DNA from: Paludibacteraceae bacterium
GTDB taxonomy: Bacteria; Bacteroidota; Bacteroidia; Bacteroidales; Paludibacteraceae
Assembly: GCA_024401435.1 (NCBI GenBank)
Contig: JAKSLB010000015.1
Span: 1 to 64,000, forward strand
Direction of reading: 5' to 3'
Length of the DNA stretch: 64,000 nucleotides
The position numbers and the translations under genes are program-made. This document shows positions 46,408 to 60,693 of the stretch, one piece after another. The notes under the pieces are model-generated. The model did not search any database, was not told the origin of the DNA, and saw only the letters and a program-made list of their open reading frames with translations. Position 1 is the stretch's first letter, and every line of letters starts with the position of its first letter.

Positions 46408-46481
46408 ATTACTACCTTTTTTAATGGGGATTTCATCAAAAAATCAATGATAAAATGAATTATGCGTAATAAATTAATGTG

Positions 46482-46764
46482 CAACCCCTTTGTGGTTGTA
46501 TGCGCGTGTTACGAATCTATTCTTCTACAGATATGCAACCCCTCTGTTTTTTGCATGGCACAAAATGGAATAGGATTTCGGATGTGGTGTGAAAAGAATG
46601 TGTGATTACCCCCTGTAGAGACGCAATATTTTGCGTCTCTACCCGCAACACATGGCAATCACGCCCAATGCAGTTATCGTGATGCATCCCCGAACCCCAG
46701 CGGGGTTCCATATCTATAGCAATGATTCGTAACGTGATGTTTCACAACCTCAGCGGGGTTGCAT
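46482..46764. repeat. Cluster of REP-like palindromes
   Basis: Includes AACCCCTTTGTGGTT (46482), GTAGAGACGCAA/TTGCGTCTCTAC (46615-46642, 4-base loop), AACCCCAGCGGGGTT (46693-46707) and AACCTCAGCGGGGTTGCAT (46746-46764). The CCCC-GGGG-TT-CATAT-TAG-CAATGA arrangement also occurs inside the parS repeats. Such units are scattered in Bacteroidales genomes. Confidence 0.7.
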
Positions 46765-46909: not shown

Positions 46910-47962
46910 ATGACAGTAAATCGTTCCGATATAGGTTACGCTAAGATAAACTTCTTCTATCACCCCGATCACTTGGGAAGCACCTCTATGGTGACCGATG
47001 CAGAGGGATATATCACGCAGAATGTAAGTTACATCCCCTACGGTGAAGTCTTCGTCGAGGAGCGCAACGGTGTATGGAACACCCCATACCTCTTCAATGC
47101 CAAGGAGTTGGACGGGGAGACTGGCTTGTACTACTACGGTGCTCGCTACTTGAACCCTAAAGACACTCGCTGGATGAGCGTCGATCCGCTGTTTGAGAAG
47201 TATGTGGGGATGAGTCCGTATGGGTATTGTGCGGGGAATCCGGTAAGGTTGGTGGATGTGGATGGAAGAAGGACGTTCAATGTAACCAATGAAGACGGGA
47301 CAACTCAAGTTAAAGAAATTAATGGTGGAATTAACAAAACATACGATATAATGCAATTTGATTTTGCCCTTGTACAATGGGCATTTGATTCTGATGAGTC
47401 TAGTGATAAAAGTGATTATAATGCATTTGTTTCAAGGCTTTCTCTCGATACTAAAGGTTATCAATTGGCGGTTTCGGCTAGATCTTTCAATGGTAAGACG
47501 GGATATGGATACGAAGATTATTGGAATCCTAATAATAAATCAGGAAAAAACACTTGGAAGTGTAATAAGTTTGTCTATGACAGATTGAAGTCTCTCAATT
47601 TATTAAATGGATATAATAACTCCTCGTGTCCTCCCCAAGCGGGTACATATTTTAATTTAAAAAATAATCTCAATGGAAGTCCTCTTATTGGTTTAAAAGC
47701 TGAAGGAAGTGAAACACACTTGGGTGATGTTATTGAGGGTTCTTGTAGTCAATATCAAACAGCATCTGGACATGTAGAGATAGTAACGACTATTTATCCT
47801 AAAGGATATAATAACCATTCGGATAATTATTTTTTATCAACAGGAGCACATTATGATCTTGTTACTGAAAGTTCTTCATTTTTTTATAAACAATATGGGG
47901 ATCCAAATAATAATAATACAATAGAATTTGATAGAGGAGTTTCAATAAGAAGGCCAAAATGA
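46910..47962 (+). CDS. Orphan Rhs tip A with a putative Cys/His peptidase-type toxin domain
   Basis: 350 residues. Residues 1-115 are only the last part of an Rhs core: FYHPDHLGSTSMVTDAEGY, GLYYYGARYLNP, DTRWMSVDPL, and SPYGYCAGNPVRLVDVDG. A full Rhs protein would have over 1000 residues before this. Residues 116-350 are an AT-rich, unrelated domain with CNKF (Cys218) and GHVEIVT (His288), a spacing seen in papain-fold/CHAP/NlpC-type peptidoglycan amidases. The stop overlaps the ATG of a lipoprotein gene. Toxin function is inferred. Confidence 0.75.
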   Translation: MTVNRSDIGYAKINFFYHPDHLGSTSMVTDAEGYITQNVSYIPYGEVFVEERNGVWNTPYLFNAKELDGETGLYYYGARYLNPKDTRWMSVDPLFEKYVGMSPYGYCAGNPVRLVDVDGRRTFNVTNEDGTTQVKEINGGINKTYDIMQFDFALVQWAFDSDESSDKSDYNAFVSRLSLDTKGYQLAVSARSFNGKTGYGYEDYWNPNNKSGKNTWKCNKFVYDRLKSLNLLNGYNNSSCPPQAGTYFNLKNNLNGSPLIGLKAEGSETHLGDVIEGSCSQYQTASGHVEIVTTIYPKGYNNHSDNYFLSTGAHYDLVTESSSFFYKQYGDPNNNNTIEFDRGVSIRRPK

Positions 47963-48507
47963 AAAATTTTTTTATTATATGCTTAACAAGTATATCATTA
48001 TTGTCATGTTCTTCCTCAGAACGTTTATATCATTATTATTTATTGGACGAGAGAGAAAGTTCAGACATTGACTATAATGCTATTCAAAATATCGATTCAC
48101 TCACAAATTATCATAAAGATACAATTCTTGCTGTATTTGAGCCTGTCCATGGTGAATATAAAGTGGTGAGATTCTTGTCGGAGGATTATGTACATTGTGC
48201 AGCTGATTACTGGGATAACATAAGAAAAATAGTAGTGCTGAAAATCGATGAAAAAAATAATGTTGTAGACGGATTTCAATCAAATGATTTTATGTATGAG
48301 TCAGTTCCTTTGTCACAAACATTATTGAGAATAAGTAATCATAATGTAAAGTACAGGAAACGAATGAAAATAAAACATTTTAAATTTGATTATTGGAGTC
48401 TAGACGTAGACACTGATGAATGCGAATGCAAATACGATCAAGATTTACTTGAAGATGTTATAACCCAAAATCGTACAAAGGGAATTATTTATAGAAAGAG
48501 AAAATAA
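47959..48507 (+). CDS. Lipoprotein, putative immunity protein for tip A
   Basis: 182 residues. Signal peptide with lipobox LLSCSSS (cysteine near residue 17). No known domain. The ATG overlaps the toxin stop (ATGA), so translation is coupled. A periplasm-facing lipoprotein is where a neutraliser of a peptidoglycan-cutting enzyme would be needed. Immunity is inferred from context only. Confidence 0.6.
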   Translation: MKNFFIICLTSISLLSCSSSERLYHYYLLDERESSDIDYNAIQNIDSLTNYHKDTILAVFEPVHGEYKVVRFLSEDYVHCAADYWDNIRKIVVLKIDEKNNVVDGFQSNDFMYESVPLSQTLLRISNHNVKYRKRMKIKHFKFDYWSLDVDTDECECKYDQDLLEDVITQNRTKGIIYRKRK

Positions 48508-48689
48508 TGGTTGATGATATGGTTTTAGGACATGTTAAAGCATTGTATTATAATACTGTCCAAATTTTGACCCGCTTGCCCAATAAAGAAAATAAACCTA
48601 ACTTAGCAAACACGAAAAGTAAGTTCGAAAGTTGGAAAAACAGCGAAAGTCAGTTGACCCCTATGTTACTGACAAGGACGAAGCCGTGA
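48507..48689 (+). CDS. Small open reading frame, uncertain
   Basis: 60 codons. Its ATG shares a base with the upstream stop (TAATG), so it could be translated, but the sequence has no family features. It may be residual toxin-region DNA. Kept at low confidence. Confidence 0.2.
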   Translation: MVDDMVLGHVKALYYNTVQILTRLPNKENKPNLANTKSKFESWKNSESQLTPMLLTRTKP

Positions 48690-48746
48690 GAAAAGGTAAA
48701 TTATTTATAAAAACACAAATCCACGAATCCATTCATAAAGTACATT

Positions 48747-48776
48747 TTGCGAAATCGAATGAAAATTTTACTTTTG
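48747..48776 (+). promoter_or_regulatory. Promoter of the second Rhs tip (TTG-N19-TACTTTTG)
   Basis: TTG at 48747-48749 and TACTTTTG at 48769-48776, 19 bp apart. The ATG of tip B at 48796 follows by 19 bases, so the tip has a dedicated promoter. Confidence 0.72.
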
Positions 48777-48795
48777 CAATAAACTAATAAAAAAC

Positions 48796-49293
48796 ATGGT
48801 GACCGATGCAGAGGGATATATCACGCAGAATGTAAGTTACATCCCATACGGAGAAGTCTTCGTCGAGGAGCGTAACGGCGTATGGAACACCCCATACCTT
48901 TTCAACGCCAAAGAATTGGACGAGGAGACTGGCATGTACTACTACGGTGCTCGCTACTTGAATCCTAAAGACACTCGCTGGCTGAGCGTCGATCCGCTGT
49001 TCGAGAATTATGATCGTTTGGGAGCTTGTGGTCCTGATGATGCTGTTTTTAACACAGCTACAATAGGGGAGGATATGAAATTGAGCTTGAGATGTTTTAA
49101 GGAATACTGCACAGGAGGTATTAAAAATCCATATAAAAATGTTGCGTCTATAGGCACTGGTACGGCTTTTGGTTTAATTGCTGCTTTTAAGTGTTTGAAG
49201 AAAATTGATGAAAAAGTTGCTGAAGGTATATATACTCGTATGTCTCAAGCAAGTCAGAGCCTTCTAAATTCTATGTGGTCAGTTTATAAATGA
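48796..49293 (+). CDS. Orphan Rhs tip B
   Basis: 165 residues. Residues 1-73 are the same Rhs core segment as in tip A, beginning exactly at the internal Met of GSTSMVTDAEG and ending at DPLFE; nucleotide identity to 46988-47212 is very high, with differences mostly at third positions. After DPLFE a different domain of about 92 residues follows (YDRLGACGPDDAVFNTATIG...), with several cysteines and no recognised family. The normal SPYxYxxNNP end of the core is missing. Putative toxin tip. Confidence 0.65.
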   Translation: MVTDAEGYITQNVSYIPYGEVFVEERNGVWNTPYLFNAKELDEETGMYYYGARYLNPKDTRWLSVDPLFENYDRLGACGPDDAVFNTATIGEDMKLSLRCFKEYCTGGIKNPYKNVASIGTGTAFGLIAAFKCLKKIDEKVAEGIYTRMSQASQSLLNSMWSVYK

Positions 49294-49299
49294 TTTTGT

Positions 49300-49884
49300 A
49301 TGAAAAAACTTGTTTTTCTCTTTGGCCTTTGGGGCTTTGCTTTTGTTATTTTGTATTCTTTTCAACCTCAAAAAGGTTTGATTTATGAATCAAGAACGGC
49401 AAGATATGAGGTTGTTAAACATGATTTTTTCAGAGTCATGGGTGATGATAACTTTATGTTTGAAGATGTGCATGAATTTAATGATATGACCAGACTCAAT
49501 GTTTTTGTTAAAGAACTATCCATGAGTGTTGATTTGATTATTAGAAAATATGGTAATATTTGTCAGATTGAATTCCTCAGGTATGAAAAAAAGGGGATTA
49601 AAGAGAGTGAAAATGTTAGAGATATTTTAGTTATGTCTAAAAAAGATATACTTGAATTTAGAAATTATATGGAAGAGAATCTTTTGGCACAAGTAGATAA
49701 TGGTTTTATATTATTAGATGAAGAAAATATACCAAGATTAAGGAAAAAAGCATTTTTGGCAGAGTATGCTCCATTCTTCATATGGGGTTCTGGTATTTTG
49801 CTTTTCATTTTTGGTTTAATCTTAATAATTAAGAAAAGCAAAAGTCTTTATAACTCTTGTATTGTGAGTGAAAAGAAGCAGTAA
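49300..49884 (+). CDS. Two-span membrane protein, putative immunity protein for tip B
   Basis: 194 residues. N-terminal span (LVFLFGLWGFAFVILYSF) and a second near the C-terminus (FFIWGSGILLFIFGLILIIK), with a soluble region of about 130 residues between them, presumably periplasmic. It starts 6 bp after tip B. Membrane immunity proteins are common for membrane- or envelope-active toxins. No homologue recognised. Confidence 0.55.
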   Translation: MKKLVFLFGLWGFAFVILYSFQPQKGLIYESRTARYEVVKHDFFRVMGDDNFMFEDVHEFNDMTRLNVFVKELSMSVDLIIRKYGNICQIEFLRYEKKGIKESENVRDILVMSKKDILEFRNYMEENLLAQVDNGFILLDEENIPRLRKKAFLAEYAPFFIWGSGILLFIFGLILIIKKSKSLYNSCIVSEKKQ

Positions 49885-50397
49885 AAGATTATTGTGTATA
49901 AAAAATCCCGTTCATCAAACGATTATTATATGACAGGTGTTCAACTAGTGTACAATAGACCTGAGGTTGATTTGGGAAGGTATAGAGAAGAGTTATGAGA
50001 TTATGTGTGAACTGAGTTCCAAACTTTGAATCTATCTTCTGAGGACAAAAGTTTTTGGATATACAGAAGGTAAGACTATTATACTCCTCAAAATTTAGAC
50101 AACAGCTATAATACATTTCTTTTTTCAACCCATAAAATTGAAACCATCAATTATCAACCATAATTTGTGTCAGTCTTTTGTTATTGACACGAATGAGGTT
50201 TGCAAAGTCCAGCTAACTCTTGTGGGTTAGCTACGGTGCAATCTTCATCGAGGAACAGTATAGCGGGTGGTTCTCAACACAAAAAACATGTCCCAGAGAC
50301 CCATCTTCCCTTCTGCGGAGTAGTGACAGAAAGCCGCTGCGCATGAAATCTTCGCAAACCCCCAATCCTACCGATGCAAAAAATCAGAAAAAATAAT
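49885..50397. other. Degraded stretch between toxin modules
   Basis: No intact gene in about 510 bp. It contains the Rhs remnant at 50226-50279 and a short open stretch GVQLVYNRPEVDLGRYREEL before a stop near 49997 that could be another gene tail. Confidence 0.45.
50226..50279 (+). pseudogene. Rhs core remnant
   Basis: Codons for VSYGAIFIEEQYSGWFST align with VSYIPYGEVFVEERNGVWNT of tips A and B, with a two-residue gap. The flanks do not continue the homology. A third, decayed Rhs fragment. Confidence 0.6.
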
Positions 50398-50405
50398 TAT
50401 CTTTG
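50398..50405 (+). promoter_or_regulatory. -7 box of the Rpn-type gene
   Basis: TATCTTTG, 57 bases before the ATG at 50463. No TTG at 19-21 bp. Confidence 0.5.
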
Positions 50406-50462
50406 CGCTTGCATGTTAAGCTTTGCAAAGATGATTCTTTAAAATAAAAAATAGAAAATACT

Positions 50463-51425
50463 ATGAAAGAAAACGACTACATCAGATTCGACTGGGCCAT
50501 CAAACGGATACTGCGGGACAAGGCAAACTTTGCCATTCTCGAGGGACTCTTTTCCGTTTTGTTGGGCAAACCCATCACAATCATCGAGGTGCTGGAGAGC
50601 GAAAGCAACCAGCAGACTCTGGAGGACAAGTTCAACCGCGTGGACATGATGGTGAAATCCGAAAACGACGAGATATTCATCGTCGAGGTGCAACTCACCC
50701 GTGACCTCCACTTCATGAAACGCATTCTCTACGGAACCAGCAAGGCCATCACGGAACACATCAAACTGGGTGACTCCTACAAGAACGTGAAGAAAATCTA
50801 CTCCATCAACGTGCTCTACTTCGACTTGGGCAAGGGCGAGGATTATCTCTACCACGGCAGGACAACCTTCACCGGCTGCTTCAAAAAGGACGAGCTGAAG
50901 ATAAAGAAAAGAGAACTGGATGCGTTGGAAGGAAAGGACCGTTATGTCGAAACAGACATATTCCCGGAATATTATCTCATCAGGGTGAACCATTTCAACG
51001 AGGTGGCCAAGACACCGATAGAGGAGTGGATGTCATTCCTGAAAGACGGAAAGATCAGCAAGGACACTACCACGCCAGGACTGAAGGAAGCCGAGGAAAA
51101 ACTCCGTGTGGCCAATATGGACGATTCGGAGAGAAAGGAGTATTTCTCCCACATCGACGCCATCATGTCGCAAAATGACACGATAGAAACCTACAGGTTG
51201 GAAGGTAGAGCTGCAGGGATAGCAGAGGGCAGAGCAGTGGGTATAGTGGAAGGTGAAGCAATCGGTTTGAAAAGAGGCGAAGCTATTGGCTTAGAGAAAG
51301 GCGAAGCCATCGGTTTGAAAAAGAAAGCAATCGAAATGGCAAGAAGTCTGAAAAGCCAAGGTGTGGATAATTTGATTATTTCCAAAGCCAGTGGCTTGAC
51401 GGTTGACGAGATAGAAAAATTATGA
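50463..51425 (+). CDS. Rpn/PD-(D/E)XK family putative transposase-nuclease
   Basis: 320 residues. The N-terminus DYIRFDWAIKRILRDKANF and nuclease core FNRVDMMV then IFIVEVQLTRD (D61, E75-x-Q77) match the Rpn/PDDEXK_2 family, which promotes recombination in E. coli. The C-terminal part carries six short EG/GxAxGL-type repeats (EGRAVGIVEGEAIGL), a length-variable feature of the family. Codon use is more GC-rich than its neighbours. Its stop overlaps the next gene by 4 bp. Confidence 0.82.
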   Translation: MKENDYIRFDWAIKRILRDKANFAILEGLFSVLLGKPITIIEVLESESNQQTLEDKFNRVDMMVKSENDEIFIVEVQLTRDLHFMKRILYGTSKAITEHIKLGDSYKNVKKIYSINVLYFDLGKGEDYLYHGRTTFTGCFKKDELKIKKRELDALEGKDRYVETDIFPEYYLIRVNHFNEVAKTPIEEWMSFLKDGKISKDTTTPGLKEAEEKLRVANMDDSERKEYFSHIDAIMSQNDTIETYRLEGRAAGIAEGRAVGIVEGEAIGLKRGEAIGLEKGEAIGLKKKAIEMARSLKSQGVDNLIISKASGLTVDEIEKL

Positions 51426-52171
51426 GCATTGCAGTTCCAAATGATATTTTTGTGGAAATTGCTATAAAAGGCCTTGGCTGGAAGCCAATTATTGAATTGC
51501 CAAGATTATGGGGAGATGAAGGTGTGGAAGAAACGAAAGAGGATGATAAGACACAAATAAAGATTGAAAAATCAGAATTTTTAAAAATGGCAAAGGAAGG
51601 TGTTGAAATTGCAAAAATATCTAATCCTTCTGGTAGCGCTTGTAATATTTGTTCTCGTAATACTTTGTATTTGCTAACACGTGATTCCGTACTTTTCCCT
51701 TATGAAGGTTCTGAATACCATATTCCAGAAAAGAATTACGAGAAAGTATACATAAAGGGATTAACAACAAATGATGGTAGGGCAAAAAAAATTAAAGAAG
51801 ACTTTGAGAAACCAACAGTTCCATATTCACAGAGATTTGATTTGATTGAGAAACAAGAAGAGGAAACATGGCAAGATTTTCTTGCAAGAATTCAAGATGA
51901 AGCAAACAATGGGTGTATTATAATTGGTGCAATGGTGGATTCTCATAATAATAGTGGTCATATTATGGTTGTTGTGCCTGGCGAAATGATTGATACTGAA
52001 AATGAGAATAAGTGGGGTGATAGTTTCAAAAAGCGTAATATAACAAAAGTTCCAATTGTTGTGGAATGTGGTCAAGGAGTCCGGAATTTTGCGGCTCCAT
52101 TATGTAAAAATGTTGATGCACGAGGTGCTATAGAAAGGTTAAAATGGTATAAATATAAATTAGCAAAATGA
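51422..52171 (+). CDS. Orphan toxin-like protein C (putative Cys/His amidase)
   Basis: 249 residues, AT-rich, no signal peptide. ACNICSRNT (Cys74, Cys77) and SGHIMVVVPGE (His180) resemble the Cys and GH-hydrophobic motifs of NlpC/P60- or Tae-like peptidoglycan amidases. It overlaps the Rpn stop (ATGA) and in turn overlaps a lipoprotein start by 4 bp. Order and overlap mirror the tip A pair. Function inferred. Confidence 0.55.
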   Translation: MSIAVPNDIFVEIAIKGLGWKPIIELPRLWGDEGVEETKEDDKTQIKIEKSEFLKMAKEGVEIAKISNPSGSACNICSRNTLYLLTRDSVLFPYEGSEYHIPEKNYEKVYIKGLTTNDGRAKKIKEDFEKPTVPYSQRFDLIEKQEEETWQDFLARIQDEANNGCIIIGAMVDSHNNSGHIMVVVPGEMIDTENENKWGDSFKKRNITKVPIVVECGQGVRNFAAPLCKNVDARGAIERLKWYKYKLAK

Positions 52172-53079
52172 AAAAAAAAGATTTTATTTGTATTTTTATA
52201 TTCTTTATTTCGATTTTTTCTTCATGTTCTATATCTGTTAAAGAATATAGGAAAATAGAGTTTATAAAAGAAACTATTGTAAAAAATAAAGATTCAGAGT
52301 CTCATAAAAAAATAAGAGGAAAAGAAGATTGGTATGAAACGAAATTTTTCCAAGGTAATGTCTTTTATCAGACAGTAACTAACGATGAAATAAAGGGTGA
52401 ATCATATAGTTTTTTCCATTTTGAAACACCTGACACTTCATTTGTATTTTGGACTATCCCCAATTTTGACATTGTTCCTTATGTAACATTCCCAGAAGAT
52501 ACGTCTTTAATGATAATCAACACATTACAGGAAGAACCTTCTTATTATGATTCTAAATATGATGACTATATATGGAAGTTCGATCTTGAAAATTTAAAAA
52601 GAGGAATCGTAAAAAAAGATTCTGTATTTTGTAAATATTGCAGATCGTGTTTTGAAGCCAACCATAAGTGGATATTCACGAAATCGAATGAAAGAGATGA
52701 TTTATATGATGGATTTTCGTTGACTGATGTTTACGTCTCTTCCACCTCGGATTTGTCTGATTCGGTGAAAGTAGCTGTGAAATTTAATGTCTGTTCGGTT
52801 AGCGAGGACGGAAGATACATTTTTGCGGTAAAGAATTACGTTTCGTCGGAAAGGGCTTGTGTAATAATTGATTCAGAAGAAAGAAAATATCAAATCATAT
52901 TGGGTAGAGATTATTCTTTCATGAATCCGTTTTACTCTAAAGAGGAAAAGAAGTTCGGATTCGATAACGGGGATTGTGTGATTTATATAGATATGCCACA
53001 AAAATTTCCATTTGATGCCTTGAATGATGAATTTCCATATGTGGAAGATGAAATATTGGAAATGTATAAGAAAAAATAA
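52168..53079 (+). CDS. Lipoprotein, putative immunity protein for protein C
   Basis: 303 residues. Signal peptide IFIFFISIFSSCS with a lipobox-like FSSC. No known domain; mostly beta-rich. ATGA overlap with the upstream toxin-like gene suggests a coupled toxin-immunity pair. It is much longer than the tip A lipoprotein and not visibly related. Confidence 0.55.
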   Translation: MKKKDFICIFIFFISIFSSCSISVKEYRKIEFIKETIVKNKDSESHKKIRGKEDWYETKFFQGNVFYQTVTNDEIKGESYSFFHFETPDTSFVFWTIPNFDIVPYVTFPEDTSLMIINTLQEEPSYYDSKYDDYIWKFDLENLKRGIVKKDSVFCKYCRSCFEANHKWIFTKSNERDDLYDGFSLTDVYVSSTSDLSDSVKVAVKFNVCSVSEDGRYIFAVKNYVSSERACVIIDSEERKYQIILGRDYSFMNPFYSKEEKKFGFDNGDCVIYIDMPQKFPFDALNDEFPYVEDEILEMYKKK

Positions 53080-53241
53080 CAGGTTGATTCCTTTCCCTAA
53101 AAATACGTACCAGATTACTAGGATAATTACATTCAATCACGAAAATACTTGGCTGGAAGCCAATAATCGGGTAACCCGTGACGCAGTCCCAGTTTCAGCG
53201 AAGCAGTTGTTATGATGAATATTCTCCCATTCCGCCTCTTT

Positions 53242-55318
53242 GTTTTTGCCGCCCTAATTTTTCTTCATCCGACAAAATAATCCTATTTTTGTGTGTAAAT
53301 CAATTCGAAAATATATGGACGGAAAGAAAATGAAAAAGATACCCTACGGAATGGGGAACTTTGCGGATATCATCCTCGACAACTACTACTATGTCGACAA
53401 AACAAGGTTTATCGCGGAGGTGGAACAGTCTGCCCGTTTTTTCTTTTTCATCCGTCCGCGCCGTTTCGGCAAGAGCCTCTTCCTCTCCATGCTGGAGAAC
53501 TACTACGATATGAACCGCAGGGAAAAGTTCGACGCCCTCTTCGGTGACCTCTGGATCGGTCAGCACCCTACGGAACTGCGTAACAGTTATGCGGTGTTGA
53601 AACTGAATTTCTCCAAGGTCTCATCCAATCTTGATGAGTGTGAGGAGTCGTTTAATGCTATTTGCTACTTGGCATACCAGGCTTTCTGCGATTATTATAA
53701 AGATTTGCTCCCTGACAATGCTTCGGACGCACTGTCAAAAGATGCCAGTGCCGTCATAAATTTTGAGTCGATTGTGAACTTATGTAATAAGAAAGGACTC
53801 AATCTTTATCTCCTCATCGACGAATACGACAACTTCACCAACACGGTGCTGAGTGACGTTGCCTCGTTGAATAAATATGAGAGCATAACTCACAAGGATG
53901 GATTCTATCGAAACTTCTTTGCGACACTGAAAGCAGCCACCGATTCGTGCCTGAAGAAAATCTTCATCACGGGCGTCAGTCCGGTGACACTCGATGACCT
54001 CACCTCCGGCTTCAACATCAACTTCAACTACACAAGCTATGCCGCCTTCAACGAGATGATGGGTTTCACCGAGGTGGAGGTGCGCGCCATACTCGACTAC
54101 TACCGCCAGTTCCATCCGTTCAACCACACGACGGACGAACTGATCGACATCATCAAACCTTGGTATGACAATTATTGCTTCTCAAAAAAATCTTTAGGAA
54201 GAGAGACCCTATATAATAGTGACATGGTTTTCTATTTCGTCAATGCCTATATAGGATATGAGTGTCAGATTCCAACCGATATGCTGGATGCCAACATCCG
54301 CATCGACTACAAGAAACTGATGATGCTGGTAAGGAAAGACCACGACTTGCAAACGTCTGTCATACAGGAGATCGTCAAGGAGGGCAGAATAACATCCGAA
54401 CTGAACGATAATTTCCCCGCAAAGAATATAAGTGACAGGAACAATTTCATCAGTCTGTTGTATTATTTTGGTCTGTTGACTGTAGAGGGGACGTTTCTCA
54501 ACAAACTGATTTTCAAGATACCGAACCAGGTGGTGAGGGAACAAATGTTTGACTATCTGGTAAGGACATACGACGAGGTGGATTTGCGCCTCGACTACTA
54601 CAAGAAGGACGAGTTGGGTGTCGACATGGCACTGAATGGCAACTGGCGTCCCTATTTTCAGGCTATCGCGGATGCGATCATGAGCTATTCATCGCAGCGA
54701 GACAAGATAAAGGGTGAATATTATGTCCATGGCTTCACCTTCGCGATGACATTGCAGAATCCGCTTTATCTGCCCGTTTCGGAGAACGATACAGCTACGG
54801 GTTATTCCGACGTCTACCTACAGCCCCGTCTTGTCAACTATCCGGAGTTGCAGCACTCCTACATCGTGGAGTTCAAATACGTGAAGAGCAGCGAGCCGGA
54901 CAGTGAAGTGGAGGCGAAACGTGCGGCAGCAATAGAACAAATCAACAATTACGCCCAGACAGCGCAAGTGCGAGAGACCATCGGTCATACCACCCTGCAT
55001 AAGATAGTCCAGGTTTACAAAGGGTTTGAACTGAAGGTGCTGGAGGAGATTGAATAAGGACGTGAAGTCCAGAATGTTGCAAAATGTGTTATGACATTTA
55101 ACGTAAAATTCTTCAACCGTACCTTGGCGCACGAACTCGGACATGGTGCCTTCACCTATGAACACCCGTTCGACAACGCGGCGTATAAGACAGAACAGGG
55201 AGCCACCCGCAACCTGATGGACTACGTCACAGACGATGACCTCGCCTACTTCCAGTGGCAATCCACCCTCGGATTGAACCTCACTTGGGGATTCTTGGAG
55301 GGGGATGAGGATGCGATG
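53242..55318 (+). repeat. Long direct repeat, copy 1 (partner 58222-60289)
   Basis: A 2.1-kb unit covering the promoter, AAA-ATPase/PDDEXK_9 gene and metallopeptidase segment recurs 4980 bp downstream. Bases 53975-55123 read as identical to 58955-60103 (1149 bp). Divergence is confined to about 53350-53430, 53590-53800 and part of 53840-53974. Confidence 0.9.
53315..55057 (+). CDS. AAA-ATPase-like / PDDEXK_9 protein, copy 1
   Basis: 580 residues from MDGKKMKKIPYG. N-terminal AAA-ATPase_like domain with the characteristic YYVDKT, P-loop IRPRRFGKSLF (46-56) and Walker B LYLLIDEYDNF; C-terminal PDDEXK_9 nuclease-like domain with YIVEFKYVKS. Very numerous in Bacteroidales; function unknown. A -7 box TATTTTTG (53284-53291) lies over the upstream in-frame start at 53291, so 53315 is the start. 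Near-duplicate of 58295-60037. Confidence 0.85.
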   Translation: MDGKKMKKIPYGMGNFADIILDNYYYVDKTRFIAEVEQSARFFFFIRPRRFGKSLFLSMLENYYDMNRREKFDALFGDLWIGQHPTELRNSYAVLKLNFSKVSSNLDECEESFNAICYLAYQAFCDYYKDLLPDNASDALSKDASAVINFESIVNLCNKKGLNLYLLIDEYDNFTNTVLSDVASLNKYESITHKDGFYRNFFATLKAATDSCLKKIFITGVSPVTLDDLTSGFNINFNYTSYAAFNEMMGFTEVEVRAILDYYRQFHPFNHTTDELIDIIKPWYDNYCFSKKSLGRETLYNSDMVFYFVNAYIGYECQIPTDMLDANIRIDYKKLMMLVRKDHDLQTSVIQEIVKEGRITSELNDNFPAKNISDRNNFISLLYYFGLLTVEGTFLNKLIFKIPNQVVREQMFDYLVRTYDEVDLRLDYYKKDELGVDMALNGNWRPYFQAIADAIMSYSSQRDKIKGEYYVHGFTFAMTLQNPLYLPVSENDTATGYSDVYLQPRLVNYPELQHSYIVEFKYVKSSEPDSEVEAKRAAAIEQINNYAQTAQVRETIGHTTLHKIVQVYKGFELKVLEEIE

Positions 55319-56542
55319 AAATTAGTCACTGATGCAAAGAAGAAGAGGGTGACTTCCGTGAAAAAGGATGAATATTTTATTGTTGCAGATGATGATGCTA
55401 GGGAAAAAGATGCTACTACATTAGCAGATGTAAAACCTAAGAAAAAATTGCCAGTTGGGGCAGAACTGCAAGCACAAGAAGATAAAGATGGAGGAGGTGT
55501 CGCTAAATTTAAATTTGTGGCTATAGTGGCAGATGCGGCAAATAATCCGAATAGATATGTGGCGGACGGTAACAACAGTACCGTTGTTTATACCTCTATG
55601 GGAAATCTTCTCAAAGTTCATTCATGTAGTAAAAAAATGAAGCTTACTAAAAATTTAACGACATCAGACATTTACAAGTTACCTTATTCCAATGTTAATG
55701 TAGCGTCGGATTTGGATGTTTCCAGTTACACAAAAGGCTCTTATGTAGATGTCGATTATAAGTGTGAGGACTATTTCCGAATTAAAGAGAATAATGCTTC
55801 TGAGGGCTCTGGTCATGTCGAGAAATGGGTAAAAAGCAGTTCGTTGTTGGAACAAATATTTTATGTGCTTTCAGAAGATGCTGACGTTTATGATGCAACG
55901 TATAAGGCATTAGCTGATCAATCTAAGGTTACGAAGTCTACATGTGTGACAATGAAGGAAATGTCAAATAAAAATTATGTAAGTGTAAAGTCTATAAGTG
56001 ATGATGATGAAGAGTCCAATTGGAAGTGTATTAAGAATCAAAATCTTCAACTTGTGATATTTTATCAATCTGCGGAAGAGTATACTTTTAAGTCTGATTT
56101 AAAGGTTTCTGACTTTTTAGAGTTACCATATTCTACATCGCAATCAACTAATGCTTTGGATGAAAGTAATTGTAAAAAGGGCTCGAAAGTTAATATTATT
56201 GCATCCTGTGGATCCTCTGTGTTGGTAGAAAATACTTTATATGATGGAGAAATTGTTAAAGGAGCATGGGTGAAATATGATAAATTTAATTATCATGTTT
56301 CTGTTGAAGATATTGAAAATATTCTTACTTCATTAAAGGTGACAGATTTCACAATACCAGACAAAGACAGTAGGGATTATAATACTCTTAATGAATTGGT
56401 TGATTCGGATCCGAATTTCTCAGATGAGACCATAAAAATGGTTGGAGGTGCTGTGAATAGAGGAGGAATTAAAAAAGAACCCATTGAGGGACCAGACAGA
56501 AAAAAGAAAACAGAAGCTGTAAAAAATGTTTTAATTAAATAG
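55091..56542 (+). CDS. Orphan metallopeptidase-type toxin module D
   Basis: 483 residues. It starts within a zinc peptidase segment: HELGHGAFTYEH (H14, E15, H18) and NLMDYV, a Met-turn-like motif, as in the pre-toxin peptidase of Bacteroidetes polymorphic toxins. After FLEGDEDAM the sequence turns AT-rich, with SH3-like stretches around residues 170-260 and 310-400 (SYVDVDYKCEDYFRIKE, WVKSSSLL). The reading frame is that of the upstream ATPase, 33 bases after its stop. Probably a recombination-ready tip, not a full toxin. Confidence 0.6.
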   Translation: MTFNVKFFNRTLAHELGHGAFTYEHPFDNAAYKTEQGATRNLMDYVTDDDLAYFQWQSTLGLNLTWGFLEGDEDAMKLVTDAKKKRVTSVKKDEYFIVADDDAREKDATTLADVKPKKKLPVGAELQAQEDKDGGGVAKFKFVAIVADAANNPNRYVADGNNSTVVYTSMGNLLKVHSCSKKMKLTKNLTTSDIYKLPYSNVNVASDLDVSSYTKGSYVDVDYKCEDYFRIKENNASEGSGHVEKWVKSSSLLEQIFYVLSEDADVYDATYKALADQSKVTKSTCVTMKEMSNKNYVSVKSISDDDEESNWKCIKNQNLQLVIFYQSAEEYTFKSDLKVSDFLELPYSTSQSTNALDESNCKKGSKVNIIASCGSSVLVENTLYDGEIVKGAWVKYDKFNYHVSVEDIENILTSLKVTDFTIPDKDSRDYNTLNELVDSDPNFSDETIKMVGGAVNRGGIKKEPIEGPDRKKKTEAVKNVLIK

Positions 56543-56549
56543 TTTAGCA

Positions 56550-57263
56550 ATGAATAGGTTTGTAATTTATATTTTACTTTTTCTCCCTACGGGATGTCTA
56601 TTTGCACAGAAGATGAATTCAAGGGATAAATTACAGGGAGTATGGGAAATTACCTCTATTAGAGCATTTGATTATCAAGATAGTCATTCTTATGAGTACG
56701 AAGTTTATAGAAATAACGATAAACTATATTTACATTTTCAATCAGACACGTTGGATGCGTGTTATTCATCAAAATTCGGTTTTAGTCCCAAAGATTTAAA
56801 AGGTATTGATTCCGTACCATTGGATTCATTGTCAGATTATGATGGATTTGTCCTTGTTGAGTATGATGATCCTATAGTCGATTCTTTAGGTGTTATACAT
56901 GGATTCGTTTTAGAATATGAATTCAAAAACTATGATAATTATTATCGTTGCTCATCTGATATTTGTTGTTATAGAAAATCGGCTATTCCAACCCCGTATT
57001 TAGTTCTCGTTAAAGAGGCTGGAACAAAAGATGGTATTGATTATCTGAAAAAATATTTCGGAACAAGCTTGTTAAAAGTTTCGGTGCAAAAGGCAGCTGT
57101 TTTTGATAATTCTTTTCATCAAACAAAAAAATTTTTTTATAAAAATGATGTTGTTGAATTGGTAAAAGAGGAGGGGCAATTCTTTAAAATTTTTTATCGT
57201 TCTAAAGACGACCATATTGTTGAGGGCTTTATAAAGAAAAATAATGTTTATATGAAATGGTAG
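56550..57263 (+). CDS. Exported protein with C-terminal SH3-like domain, putative immunity protein
   Basis: 237 residues. Signal peptide IYILLFLPTGCLFAQ; a GC pair inside it lies before the likely FAQ cleavage. The C-terminal 65 residues (VSVQKAAVFDNSFHQTKKFF ... EGFIKKNNV) align with those of the gene at 57394. Starts 7 bp after module D. Role as immunity protein inferred. Confidence 0.55.
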   Translation: MNRFVIYILLFLPTGCLFAQKMNSRDKLQGVWEITSIRAFDYQDSHSYEYEVYRNNDKLYLHFQSDTLDACYSSKFGFSPKDLKGIDSVPLDSLSDYDGFVLVEYDDPIVDSLGVIHGFVLEYEFKNYDNYYRCSSDICCYRKSAIPTPYLVLVKEAGTKDGIDYLKKYFGTSLLKVSVQKAAVFDNSFHQTKKFFYKNDVVELVKEEGQFFKIFYRSKDDHIVEGFIKKNNVYMKW

Positions 57264-57370
57264 ATGAGGCCTTATTCAAAGATGTATTTATTAGAAGTTG
57301 TTTAGGTCTTATTAATGGTGGCAGTAATGAGGAAGACACAAGACTAGAAATGACTAAAAAAAGCATATAA
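57257..57370 (+). pseudogene. 37-codon open remnant
   Basis: Starts ATG overlapping the upstream stop and reads VDEALFKDVFIRSCLGLING then a charged tail to TAA. It looks like a C-terminal scrap of a lost protein; translation is possible but unproven. Confidence 0.25.
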
Positions 57371-57393
57371 GGAGCTAAATAAATGAGATTATT

Positions 57394-58071
57394 ATGAGAA
57401 GTAGGTTGTTGATATTATTTATTTTGTTAGCAAATTATCTATATGCGGGTGATTTGCAATGTCTTCAAGGCGTTTGGAAAGAATTTGATATGACTCCTGA
57501 TAAAAGTATGAGTTCTGTTAATGAATTGTATTTAATTGTTAAGAACAGACAAATGCTATCTGTATGGGTCGAGCAAGGAAATGTTACGCATGTGCAACTA
57601 GAATATATGTGTTTTATTCCCGATGAACAACAAAATAAAAATGTCCGATATAAGGATATCAAAAATAATGAAAGTGGTGACGTTTATTTGGCGAAACATC
57701 CTTTAAATGATACAGCTATGATTAATAGTGAATGTTCTCCGGAGATGATAAGCTGTGGAGAAGAAGATTTGTTTGTGTCATCTGCAATGTATAGAAGAGG
57801 TAATTTAAATTTTGCATTAAAGGAATCGATATTTTATAATGATCCTGATTTTGGATATTTTGTAAATTGTGCAAGAATAAAGGTAGATAAGGCATATATA
57901 TATGATTCTACAATGCATAAAACGAATGAGTTCCTTACAAAAGAAAAAGAATGTTTTGTCATTGAATCAAATGGCAAATATGTGAAAATGGAATGTAGGG
58001 GAAAAAGTGGGAAGGTAATTGTCGGTTATCTAAGAAAGGAAGATATCGTCTTCGATAAATTCATTGAATGA
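57394..58071 (+). CDS. Exported protein, paralogue of the 56550 gene
   Basis: 225 residues. Signal peptide LLILFILLANYLYAGDLQ with cleavage after YAG. The start LQGVWKEFD resembles KLQGVWEITS of the upstream gene, and the C-terminal SH3-like stretch (IKVDKAYIYDSTMHKTNEFL ... VGYLRKEDI) is clearly related. Probably a second, diverged immunity-type gene. Confidence 0.55.
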   Translation: MRSRLLILFILLANYLYAGDLQCLQGVWKEFDMTPDKSMSSVNELYLIVKNRQMLSVWVEQGNVTHVQLEYMCFIPDEQQNKNVRYKDIKNNESGDVYLAKHPLNDTAMINSECSPEMISCGEEDLFVSSAMYRRGNLNFALKESIFYNDPDFGYFVNCARIKVDKAYIYDSTMHKTNEFLTKEKECFVIESNGKYVKMECRGKSGKVIVGYLRKEDIVFDKFIE

Positions 58072-58096
58072 TTTACGAAATAAATAACACAAACAT

Positions 58097-58195
58097 ATGC
58101 GAAAACCTTTTTCAATCCTATTAATTCTTCTCCTGTCGTCGTTTCAGTTTGCGATGGCGGATGCGGTGTCGGTGGCGGCGAAGCATCCGAAATAG
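58097..58195 (+). pseudogene. Signal-peptide-only remnant of a large exported protein
   Basis: 32 codons: MRKPFSILLILLLSSFQFAM followed by ADAVSVAAKHPK and a stop. It is a textbook signal peptide with nothing after it. It ends 27 bp before the second long direct repeat. It likely marks the 5' end of a former full-length toxin gene. Confidence 0.5.
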
Positions 58196-58221
58196 AGAAT
58201 ATTCCCCACACCCGTATCTTC

Positions 58222-60289
58222 GTTTTTGCCGCCCTAATTTTTCTTCATCCGACAAAATAATCCTATTTTTGCGTGTAAATCAATTCGAAAATATATGGAC
58301 GGAAAGAAAATGAAAAAGATACCCTACGGCAAATGTAACTTTGAGGACATCAGACTTCAAAACATGTATTATGTGGATAAGAGCCGTTACATAAGAGAGG
58401 TGGAAGATTCCAGCGACTTCTTTTTCTTCATCCGTCCGCGCCGTTTCGGCAAGAGCCTCTTCCTCTCCATGCTGGAGAACTACTACGATATGAACCGCAG
58501 GGAGAAGTTCGACTCCCTCTTCGGTGACCTCTGGATCGGTCAACACCCCACGGAACAACGCAACAGTTATGCGGTGATGACGTTGGACTTTTCATGCATT
58601 ACAGCAGGTTTGGATAGATGTGAAGAGAATTTCAACACATACTGCCGTGAAGTTTTCGTCAAATTCTGTGACTTCTATAAAAATGTCTTGCCAGAAGGAA
58701 CTTCAAAGTTGATGAGAGAAGATAATAGTGCGACAGAAAACTTTATACGTTTAGTAAATATTTGTTCGTCAAAAAATATTCAACTTTATCTTCTCATCGA
58801 CGAATACGACAACTTCACCAACACGGTGCTGAGTGATGTTGCGGCATTGAACAAATATGAGAGCATCACCCACAAGGATGGTTTCTACCGAAATTTCTTC
58901 GCAACATTGAAAGCTGCGACAAGGTCTTGTTTGAAGAAAATCTTCCTTACGGGTGTCAGTCCGGTGACACTCGATGACCTCACCTCCGGCTTCAACATCA
59001 ACTTCAACTACACAAGCTATGCCGCCTTCAACGAGATGATGGGTTTCACCGAGGTGGAGGTGCGCGCCATACTCGACTACTACCGCCAGTTCCATCCGTT
59101 CAACCACACGACGGACGAACTGATCGACATCATCAAACCTTGGTATGACAATTATTGCTTCTCAAAAAAATCTTTAGGAAGAGAGACCCTATATAATAGT
59201 GACATGGTTTTCTATTTCGTCAATGCCTATATAGGATATGAGTGTCAGATTCCAACCGATATGCTGGATGCCAACATCCGCATCGACTACAAGAAACTGA
59301 TGATGCTGGTAAGGAAAGACCACGACTTGCAAACGTCTGTCATACAGGAGATCGTCAAGGAGGGCAGAATAACATCCGAACTGAACGATAATTTCCCCGC
59401 AAAGAATATAAGTGACAGGAACAATTTCATCAGTCTGTTGTATTATTTTGGTCTGTTGACTGTAGAGGGGACGTTTCTCAACAAACTGATTTTCAAGATA
59501 CCGAACCAGGTGGTGAGGGAACAAATGTTTGACTATCTGGTAAGGACATACGACGAGGTGGATTTGCGCCTCGACTACTACAAGAAGGACGAGTTGGGTG
59601 TCGACATGGCACTGAATGGCAACTGGCGTCCCTATTTTCAGGCTATCGCGGATGCGATCATGAGCTATTCATCGCAGCGAGACAAGATAAAGGGTGAATA
59701 TTATGTCCATGGCTTCACCTTCGCGATGACATTGCAGAATCCGCTTTATCTGCCCGTTTCGGAGAACGATACAGCTACGGGTTATTCCGACGTCTACCTA
59801 CAGCCCCGTCTTGTCAACTATCCGGAGTTGCAGCACTCCTACATCGTGGAGTTCAAATACGTGAAGAGCAGCGAGCCGGACAGTGAAGTGGAGGCGAAAC
59901 GTGCGGCAGCAATAGAACAAATCAACAATTACGCCCAGACAGCGCAAGTGCGAGAGACCATCGGTCATACCACCCTGCATAAGATAGTCCAGGTTTACAA
60001 AGGGTTTGAACTGAAGGTGCTGGAGGAGATTGAATAAGGACGTGAAGTCCAGAATGTTGCAAAATGTGTTATGACATTTAACGTAAAATTCTTCAACCGT
60101 ACCATGACGCACGAGCTCGGACATGGCGCTTTCGCATGGCAACACCCATTCGATTTGACCGAGGAAAAAATTTCCACGAACAACCTGATGGACTACGTCA
60201 AAGACGATGACCTCGCCTACTTCCAGTGGCAATCCACCCTCGGGTTGAACCTCACTTGGGGATTCTTGGAGGGGGATGAGGATGGGATG
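58222..60289 (+). repeat. Long direct repeat, copy 2
   Basis: Partner of 53242-55318; see there. The right boundary coincides with the end of the metallopeptidase segment (FLEGDED), after which the two modules have unrelated sequence. Confidence 0.9.
58295..60037 (+). CDS. AAA-ATPase-like / PDDEXK_9 protein, copy 2
   Basis: 580 residues, same architecture as 53315-55057. From GVSPVTLDDL to the C-terminus the two proteins are identical. They differ in residues about 13-42 (KCNFEDIRLQNMYYVDKSRY against MGNFADIILDNYYYVDKTRF) and about 94-160. The P-loop block between these is conserved. -7 box TATTTTTG at 58264-58271. Confidence 0.85.
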   Translation: MDGKKMKKIPYGKCNFEDIRLQNMYYVDKSRYIREVEDSSDFFFFIRPRRFGKSLFLSMLENYYDMNRREKFDSLFGDLWIGQHPTEQRNSYAVMTLDFSCITAGLDRCEENFNTYCREVFVKFCDFYKNVLPEGTSKLMREDNSATENFIRLVNICSSKNIQLYLLIDEYDNFTNTVLSDVAALNKYESITHKDGFYRNFFATLKAATRSCLKKIFLTGVSPVTLDDLTSGFNINFNYTSYAAFNEMMGFTEVEVRAILDYYRQFHPFNHTTDELIDIIKPWYDNYCFSKKSLGRETLYNSDMVFYFVNAYIGYECQIPTDMLDANIRIDYKKLMMLVRKDHDLQTSVIQEIVKEGRITSELNDNFPAKNISDRNNFISLLYYFGLLTVEGTFLNKLIFKIPNQVVREQMFDYLVRTYDEVDLRLDYYKKDELGVDMALNGNWRPYFQAIADAIMSYSSQRDKIKGEYYVHGFTFAMTLQNPLYLPVSENDTATGYSDVYLQPRLVNYPELQHSYIVEFKYVKSSEPDSEVEAKRAAAIEQINNYAQTAQVRETIGHTTLHKIVQVYKGFELKVLEEIE

Positions 60290-60693
60290 TATGATTCTTC
60301 TTCGCTTATTTCAGGTTATTATTTTACGTGGTTGGGAGATGACCTAAAAGGATGGTATCCAGATGAATTAGAATCAAAAGTTCAGTCTGATAAAGAGGAT
60401 TTCAAAAATTTAAAATTTCATTAAATATGTAAAAAATGAAACCGAGAATATTTTACTTAAGAAAAATATTGAAAAAGAAGAAGTTTTAACAGGAAAAATT
60501 AGATGTACGTCTTTGTATTTAGGTACGAAATCAATTCAAATAGTTCCCTAATTATCGATCGGTAGGTTTTGGTTATAATTTTGATCGAAAAGCAAATTAT
60601 TCAATTCCTATAATCGAAGGAGAAAGATTGGGTGTTCCAAAAATGATAATCAAACATCCTTTGATTGTTGGTTTCCATTGGGCATTCAGTTGA
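60071..60693 (+). pseudogene. Orphan metallopeptidase-type module E, frameshifted
   Basis: The first frame (60071-60424, 117 codons) has HELGHGAFAWQH and NLMDYV as in module D, then new sequence and a stop. Homologous-looking coding text continues in the +1 frame (from about 60423: KYVKNETENILLKKNIEKEE ... SIQIVP) and again in the next frame from about 60544 (NYRSVGFGYNFDRKANYSIP ... VGFHWAFS) to TGA at 60691. Two frameshifts therefore broke a gene of about 205 codons. No immunity gene follows. Confidence 0.6.

Follow-up and report, generated by a model that had tools for sequence, protein, structure and literature searches.

Arrays of orphan toxin-tip and immunity cassettes, probably a recombinase-associated reservoir, in a Paludibacteraceae genome

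In the genome of a Paludibacteraceae bacterium (GenBank assembly GCA_024401435.1), the first 64,000 nucleotides of contig JAKSLB010000015.1 (C57; hereafter the window) contain a row of five short toxin modules, A to E, at positions 46,910 to 60,693. Comparison with the rest of this genome and with related genomes suggests that the window contains one array, among many in this genome, of orphan toxin tips and candidate immunity genes, and on balance we consider it probable that these arrays form a recombinase-associated reservoir for Rhs- and HELGH-type toxins. The orphan-tip reservoir is well supported and is of a known kind, seen here at unusual scale; what our literature search did not find described is a short hairpin element that looks like a joint between cassettes, together with a tyrosine recombinase bound to the locus of a full-length carrier. 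That this recombinase acts on the element we infer, and all functional statements below on tips, partner genes, element and recombinase were likewise drawn from sequence. The genome is a 3.83-Mb draft in 204 contigs. Such drafts break at repeats, so that carriers are at least as many and arrays at least as long as counted here, and several contigs may belong to one array. By a rough estimate, array DNA amounts to about 120 kb, or about 3% of the genome, and in these arrays a tip followed by its partner gene mostly alternate on one strand (by eye).

Orphan tips and full-length carriers

The initial annotation placed module frames at positions 46,910 (A), 48,796 (B), 51,422 (C), 55,091 (D) and 60,071 (E), and open reading frames were found at all five. 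The features of the array are as follows.

46910..47962, + strand: module A tip, Rhs core segment and unique C-terminal domain
47959..48507, + strand: module A candidate immunity gene, lipoprotein-like signal (by eye), 4-nt overlap with A
48563..48693, + strand: array element, conserved left block and hairpin core; core match at 48669-48688 with 2 mismatches
48694..48795, + strand: leader of B, about 90% common with the leader of an Rpn-type gene on contig C137
48796..49293, + strand: module B tip, Rhs core segment and short C-terminal domain with a hydrophobic stretch
49300..49884, + strand: module B candidate immunity gene, membrane protein (by eye)
about 50150..50320, + strand: decayed element and start of a type-I Rhs tip, from alignment to three of four references
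50463..51425, + strand: Rpn-like PD-(D/E)XK gene (PF12784), 4-nt overlap with tip C
51422..52171, + strand: module C tip, conserved segment missing
52168..53079, + strand: module C candidate immunity gene, lipoprotein-like (by eye)
53291..55057, + strand: AAA-ATPase_like and PDDEXK_9 gene, inside repeat block 53192-55081
55091..56542, + strand: module D tip, HELGH segment and unique C-terminal domain
56550..57263, + strand: module D candidate immunity gene 1, exported (by eye)
57394..58071, + strand: module D candidate immunity gene 2, exported (by eye), weakly related to gene 1
58295..60037, + strand: second AAA-ATPase_like gene, 90% identical to the first
60071..60424, + strand: module E, probable remnant with HELGH segment and truncated C-terminus, without partner gene

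As had been proposed, two carrier types are mixed. Modules A and B matched the Rhs core family TIGR03696 (NCBIfam; E values of 5e-19 and 5e-12), share a 217-nt stretch of 94% identity and diverge after the core. The HELGH segments of D and E are 81% identical in amino acids (aa), and each of the two modules begins 33 nt after the stop codon of an ATPase gene, with an identical joint. No Pfam or NCBIfam model named the HELGH segment in D, and no NCBIfam model named it in E, which was scanned against NCBIfam only. The description of four modules as a conserved segment joined to an unrelated C-terminus held for A, B and D. Module E is probably a remnant rather than a working module, because it is short, lacks a partner gene, and its similarity to a tip on C150 breaks off about 27 aa past the conserved segment.

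The predicted second genes, lipoprotein-like for A and C, membrane for B and exported for D, were recovered, their signals being read by eye from the translations without a predictor. The C-terminal domain of A contains Cys-Asn and Ser-Gly-His motifs, which we take to indicate perhaps a cysteine peptidase or an amidase, and was found in one of 393 genomes of the order, its own. The C-terminal domain of B is perhaps membrane-active, judging from its translation. A homologue of the B partner gene (55% identical) lies near full-length carriers in genome G010, there without tip B, and the first candidate immunity gene of D has a weak C-terminal match to the gene behind a tip on C174.

Module C had been described as a C-terminal domain only. 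The conserved segment is indeed missing, but the domain is not a bare one, since homologues end HELGH-type frames in two other genomes. Relatives of toxin C were detected in three of the other 392 genomes of the order (G317, G284 and G153). In G317 the relative terminates a HELGH-type frame, with a homologue (33%) of the C partner gene behind it; G284 contained five matches, and two of the three frames read were of HELGH type. These HELGH frames of G317 and G284 measured 489–679 aa, and in G153 a weak match stood at the end of an Rhs frame. Residues C74-N75, H180 and E215 were invariant across five C sequences. Because its relatives end HELGH-type (and, weakly, Rhs) frames elsewhere, C looks like a real tip that lost its conserved segment, in whose place the Rpn gene now stands. 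Conservation of the partner gene together with the tip was seen for C (G317); A and D are paired with their second genes by adjacency only. A PDB sequence search with A and C gave best E values of 0.24 and 0.047, with no credible relative.

The absence of a full-length carrier, as initially annotated, applies to the window and not to the genome: contig C143 encodes a complete Rhs carrier of 3115 aa, with SpvB, TcdB-mid, RHS repeats and the Rhs core in one chain, to which the segment of A is 76% identical over 106 residues; the segment of B is among the matches too. Upstream of the carrier, the same operon encodes a second Rhs protein (1704 aa) and two proteins that fall into no clear family (763 and 808 aa). 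Export of the operon products by a type IX secretion system was considered, as tails of the partner proteins resemble its signals by eye; Pfam reported none, and we do not claim it.

The Rhs segment of A had 38 matches in the genome, two in frames longer than 1000 aa and one in a stop-broken frame of 38 aa. The other 35 are in short frames of 62–586 aa, some of which a contig end truncates; this number counts A and B, and the remaining 33 are all on other contigs. The HELGH segment was matched six times: twice in the window, once on C1 in a frame of 1313 aa, and on C193, C174 and C150 in frames that run off a contig end, so that a full HELGH carrier is possible at these places. Across 61 genomes searched the Rhs segment was matched in 38, including 15 of the 16 in the genus (own genome included). 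The search for related full-length carriers proposed with the initial annotation succeeded in related genomes as well as on C143: in G034, a 3496-aa carrier is followed by about 35 kb of tips and small genes, and in G010, a 3073-aa carrier has six tips behind it and a further one where the stretch ends, plus two on its other side. On the side of G034:C18 far from the carrier (L102-L103), several tips share a different leader, about 200 bp long with AGTTCCCCCTTCAGGGGGCTAGGGGGCTTG at its end, which gives this array, from another genus, a leader of its own.

To compare toxins, 75 tip frames were chosen by pattern, C-termini below 40 aa were excluded, and the remainder were compared mutually and with other frames; the C-termini of B, D and E were compared within the fetched arrays, and those of A and C across the genomes of the order. 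At an E value of 1e-4, 20 pairs of tip C-termini were obtained, some of which, such as pairs involving B or G034_36472, reflect the shared segment and not the toxin. Within the own genome, C178_1477 (class I) matched C2_9103 (class IV; 42% over 199 aa) and C137_16326 (class IV) matched C184_744 (class IIb; 37% over 135 aa). Orphans also matched full-length carriers: C157_4190 that of G034 (32% over 213 aa), and a G006 orphan beside the recombinase that of G010 (38% over 188 aa). These comparisons support tip exchange between carrier classes, with related toxins also occurring on full-length carriers.

The hairpin element between cassettes

A short element with the consensus TGTCAG-N-TGTyACTGACAAnGGCGAAGCCGTG stands between partner genes and the next tips. 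The pattern TGACAACGGCGAAGCCGTG, with up to 3 mismatches, occurred 12 times in the genome, always on tip-array contigs (12/12), and its reversed control not at all. At up to 2 mismatches, 11 of the 16 genomes of the genus contained a match and the reversed control was absent from all 16; one of the 11, in G015, lies inside a coding gene and was taken as chance. Of 48 places across the genus 44 were examined, the rest being G010:C1:18263 (L126, where a tip frame is present), G010:C34:40311 and two in G011. The flank and left-arm counts below refer to 43 copies, L115 having been dropped as lying inside a coding gene.

Outside the collection pattern, TG..A was conserved to the left of the core. 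Of the 43 copies, 39 have a left arm T[GC][TC]CAG ahead of the core at a distance of 8–26 bases, as against none of 43 in a control stretch, by a pattern written after the copies had been seen. The arms TGTCAG and CTGACA can pair, and next to them lies a small second hairpin, ACGGC-GAA-GCCGT. When six copies were folded, z ranged from -1.2 to -3.2 (window copy, -2.1), and the copy of G005 folded differently. The outer pair is kept by a double change in a G006 variant, CGTCAG...CTGACG, in one of its two copies. A scan of the window and two array stretches against Rfam returned no family at gathering score.

The element precedes tips of classes I, IIb and IV, of the class of B, and an Rpn gene on C137, and its flanks vary largely independently of it. 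Pairs involving C143 or L128, where a contig cuts the flank, were left unscored, so that 55 of the 66 own-genome pairs and 820 of all 903 were compared. In the own genome 42 pairs shared neither flank, seven only the right, four only the left and two both; over all 43 copies, many of whose pairs are between species, 639 of 820 shared neither. The left block of the window copy matched seven places on other array contigs of the genome. Five of these alignments cross the element, four ending within 5 bp of the core and one reaching the first base of tip B; the two others (C174 and C2) end before the core. These patterns make the element look like a joint between cassettes.

The homology between 48563-48796 and positions 13626-13857 of C137 stops at the first base of tip B. 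The leader at 48694-48795 is likely to be the promoter and 5′ untranslated region of B, and promoters belonging to the modules themselves, as initially annotated, are plausible because B and the Rpn-type gene on C137 have the same leader. Further along, the stretch at 50150-50320 appears to be a decayed element with the start of a type-I tip. In an initial alignment the score of 31 did not exceed the shuffles (maximum of 500, 32); scoring parameters adapted to lower identity gave significance for three of four references. With the latter, scores of 206, 176 and 165 to three type-I copies compared with shuffle maxima of 125, 118 and 125 (1000 each), and the score of 63 to the G010 copy was reached by 368 of 1000 shuffles. 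Further elements were sought before A and before both ATPase genes. Eight of the nine comparisons were no better than shuffles; in the ninth, 58068-58300 scored 27 against a block of C2, the best of 200 shuffles being 22. At 46480-46764 the window also contains hairpin repeats of the type GTAGAGACGCAA...TTGCGTCTCTAC, with matches in C204 and C2, a second repeat family that may be genome-wide.

The tyrosine recombinase at the carrier locus

Upstream of the Rhs-carrier operon, C143 encodes a 385-aa tyrosine recombinase with Phage_integrase and Phage_int_SAM_5 domains. A two-sequence profile, run against 120 genomes and listed to 1e-40, detected it in five (G000, G002, G006, G010 and G013), in one copy each with E below 1e-160, the next best match being at 6e-60. 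A scan of contigs with the recombinase returned three loci, G006:C72, G013:C82 and G010:C34. Downstream of the recombinase, the operon continues to the carrier in G000, G002 (carrier cut at 2802 aa by the contig) and G010, in G013 it extends 95 aa into the carrier, and the G006 contig ends just behind the recombinase. The recombinase thus heads a Rhs-carrier operon in all four genomes whose contigs continue. On the other side, an orphan tip points away from it on all four contigs that reach so far (G000, G002, G006 and G010), recognised in G000 and G002 from its first bases, by eye; the G013 contig starts too close.

About 95–100 bp before the start codon of the recombinase lie three 11-bp repeats, GT[TG]ACTNNNNN, present in 5/5 genomes and in none of 20,000 base shuffles. 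The pattern was written after the sequences had been seen, the middle repeat is degenerate in G000, and the five genomes count as four independent sequences because G006 and G013 are nearly identical there.

In an integron, the recombinase gene is divergent from the first cassette and a hairpin site lies between cassettes. The locus described here has, as read from sequence alone, the same divergent recombinase and first tip and a hairpin between cassettes. Unlike an integron integrase, the recombinase scored 47.9 bits with TIGR02249, whose cut-off is 265, and no attC consensus was recognised by eye in the element. The recombinase-associated acquired interbacterial defence (rAID) arrays of Bacteroidales also have short genes in one orientation, conserved motifs between the genes and a predicted tyrosine recombinase (PMC12247911), a likeness at the level of description. 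In contrast to that description of immunity arrays free of toxins, the cassettes here carry tips too, and the recombinase stands at the head of a full-length Rhs-carrier operon, outside the window. The layout of the locus is that of an integron or of rAID, and its function may be similar.

Alternative readings and biological meaning

Our preferred reading, a recombinase-associated reservoir, can be put as a sequence of steps. Arrays would store spare toxin tips together with their immunity genes. Homologous recombination through the conserved pre-toxin segment would place a tip on a full-length carrier, as in the published model for Rhs and contact-dependent growth inhibition (CDI) toxins. Cassettes would be gained, lost and reordered at the double-hairpin element between them, probably by the recombinase at the head of the Rhs-carrier operon, to which its location, the layout and the repeats point. 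The ATPase and nuclease genes may be array-bound passengers or helpers that provide leaders and long blocks of homology, and the immunity genes may also protect against neighbours by themselves. In a more specific version, a weapons integron, the recombinase of the carrier locus would capture, shuffle and release cassettes at the double hairpin before a tip is loaded through the shared segment, with the GTnACT 11-bp repeats and the GTyACTG of the element as its binding sites; we regard this version as a tentative possibility.

Several observations weigh against these proposals. No actual tip swap within one lineage was seen directly in the genomes compared. Element and recombinase do not always occur together: the recombinase is present in only three (G000, G002 and G010) of the 11 genomes with a core match, and of the other recombinase genomes, G006 has a variant element and G013 none on the one contig examined. 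Between the recombinase and the divergent tip, the element occurs in G010 and, as the variant, in G006, and is missing in G000 and G002. Different leaders are found in the arrays of G034 and G019, two genomes in which the search gave no recombinase of the strong class. The window itself contains one intact element, without the full left arm (only GTCAG), and the decayed one, and none was recognised before A, D or E. The identity of the core is in part by construction, because the copies were collected with the core pattern; the single-strand folds of the six copies gained only moderately over shuffles; and RNAalifold found no compensatory pairs among 16 copies, in an alignment where MAFFT misplaced the left arm of copies with longer spacing. 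In G010, where one tip class is dominant, the 120 pairs comprised 83 sharing the right flank only, 21 both, one the left only and 15 neither; the flanks are independent there on the left side only, because the right flank is common to 104 of 120 pairs.

A recognisable tip lies within 700 bp of only 27 of the 44 elements examined, which also weakens the proposals. The other 17 were sorted by eye. Five stand before truncated tip starts (L116, C2:4041 and three copies on G010:C34), two in G014 are followed by small genes for exported proteins and no tip, and one copy each precedes an Rpn gene and a tip at a contig end. Three are unclear (L119, L124 and L134), L115 is a chance match, and the last four are copies of one non-tip locus in four genomes (L117, L120, L127 and L131). 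At this apparently shared locus (G005, G012, G001 and G007, respectively), an element-like copy precedes a pair of small genes, possibly immunity genes or an unrelated use of the site. At L118 (G001:C49, with a tip fragment) and L124 (G002:C62), the element lies beside housekeeping-like genes (carbamoyltransferase-like and nitrilase-like, by eye), as if cassettes insert at scattered places.

The arrays could instead be a passive graveyard, in which displaced tips were left behind and spread by homologous recombination or duplication and the element is an inherited leader (terminator, translation hairpin, part of a promoter). Displacement by recombination is the published source of such modules (PMC3482391, PMC3150448); decayed modules do occur (50150-50320, E, and truncated tips behind elements in G010 and G001), and in G010 and G006 the element often stands, by eye, just before a start codon with a ribosome-binding-like stretch. 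A leader inherited with its gene fits poorly with a core that is kept while both flanks differ in most pairs, with its position before several tip classes, an Rpn gene and tip-less genes, and with its spread over many contigs, and so does a locus-bound recombinase. We consider this explanation somewhat unlikely.

It is less probable still that the arrays are mainly defensive, an orphan immunity store with toxin tips as hitchhikers. The rAID clusters, described as orphan immunity genes in one orientation with shared intergenic motifs and a predicted tyrosine recombinase (PMC12247911), would be a precedent, and the tip-less G014 cassettes agree with it; against it, most own-genome cassettes keep their tip and a full carrier stands at the recombinase locus.

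The initial annotation had linked interspersed ATPase–nuclease genes to the arrays. This holds for PF09820 (AAA-ATPase_like), all five genome matches of which lie in tip arrays (two on C57, and C150, C2 and a contig-end piece on C193), and not for PF12784 (Rpn-like), with only two of six in arrays. The PF12784, AAA-ATPase_like and PDDEXK_9 assignments all scored above the profile cut-offs, and the repeat block with the first ATPase gene (53192-55081) is common to C150 at 92%. Seven own-genome cases, one of them an AAA_14 gene of C137, could be evaluated, and in six a tip follows immediately on the same strand. These genes, and not the tyrosine recombinase, might drive movement by cutting near tips and promoting a RecA-independent exchange as proposed for Rpn proteins, which are linked to RecA-independent transfer in Escherichia coli (PMC5350276). 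The exception among the seven, a C150 gene without a tip behind it, the two Rpn genes of G019 on the strand opposite the tip array (one inside it, one at its end) and the scarcity of PF12784 in arrays make this improbable, and Rpn proteins have also been reported as anti-phage toxin–antitoxin systems (PMC10327210). PADLOC gave no hit for the two ATPases, the Rpn protein or the recombinase. The Rpn-like protein of the window (50463-51425) ends in GEAIGL-type repeats (a 46-nt DNA repeat), a C-terminus reminiscent of the small Rpn product reported to be made separately. Finally, a REP-like (repetitive extragenic palindromic) repeat that is spread by its own transposase and favours these regions by chance would also be short, mostly intergenic and doubly hairpinned, with many copies in unrelated flanks, and is very unlikely given that all 12 genome copies are on tip-array contigs and that the Rfam scan of three stretches gave no family at gathering score.

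The recombinase-associated reservoir has close relatives in print. Orphan rhs-CT/rhsI and cdiA-CT/cdiI modules (PMC3150448) resemble it in having a truncated carrier segment, an unrelated tip and a partner gene, in forming arrays and in having relatives on full-length carriers elsewhere, seen here for C157_4190, for the G006 orphan and, on HELGH frames, for C, but not for A, found in its own genome only. In the same account, cdiA-CT orphans mostly lack initiation signals and orphan arrays reach up to eleven pairs, in one E. coli strain; here, in contrast, tips behind the elements of G010 and G006 have a start codon (by eye), one genome has 35 short-frame Rhs segments plus HELGH tips over many contigs, and to this are added mixed carrier classes, ATPase/nuclease genes tied to the arrays, a recombinase tied to the carrier locus and a hairpin element common to many cassettes. 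Recombining standalone cassettes in toxin–immunity order are known for polymorphic toxin systems (PMC3482391), in whose examined text the word integrase is absent. Large carriers with exchangeable C-termini are known from the TANFOR toxins of Bacteroidetes (PMC7073777), a likeness by description; neither Pfam nor NCBIfam gave a match for two HELGH-bearing frames that were scanned. Our literature search found no description of tip cassettes with a recombinase, most subscription papers lying outside its coverage. The organised reservoir put forward in the initial annotation is strengthened by the shared element and the recombinase.

It is not yet settled how orphan toxin tips come together and are exchanged. 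The mechanisms of exchange of CDI and Rhs tips were called unknown in 2011 (PMC3150448), and a 2025 preprint names the mechanism of rAID biogenesis as an active area of research (PMC12247911). With a candidate enzyme, a candidate site and, by rough estimate, about 120 kb of arrays in one genome, all within one genus, the question of tip exchange becomes testable. If the proposal is true, a recombinase beside a full-length toxin gene that moves tips would explain how weapons are swapped and, should the weapons integron prove correct, these bacteria would possess an arsenal reordered by site-specific recombination.

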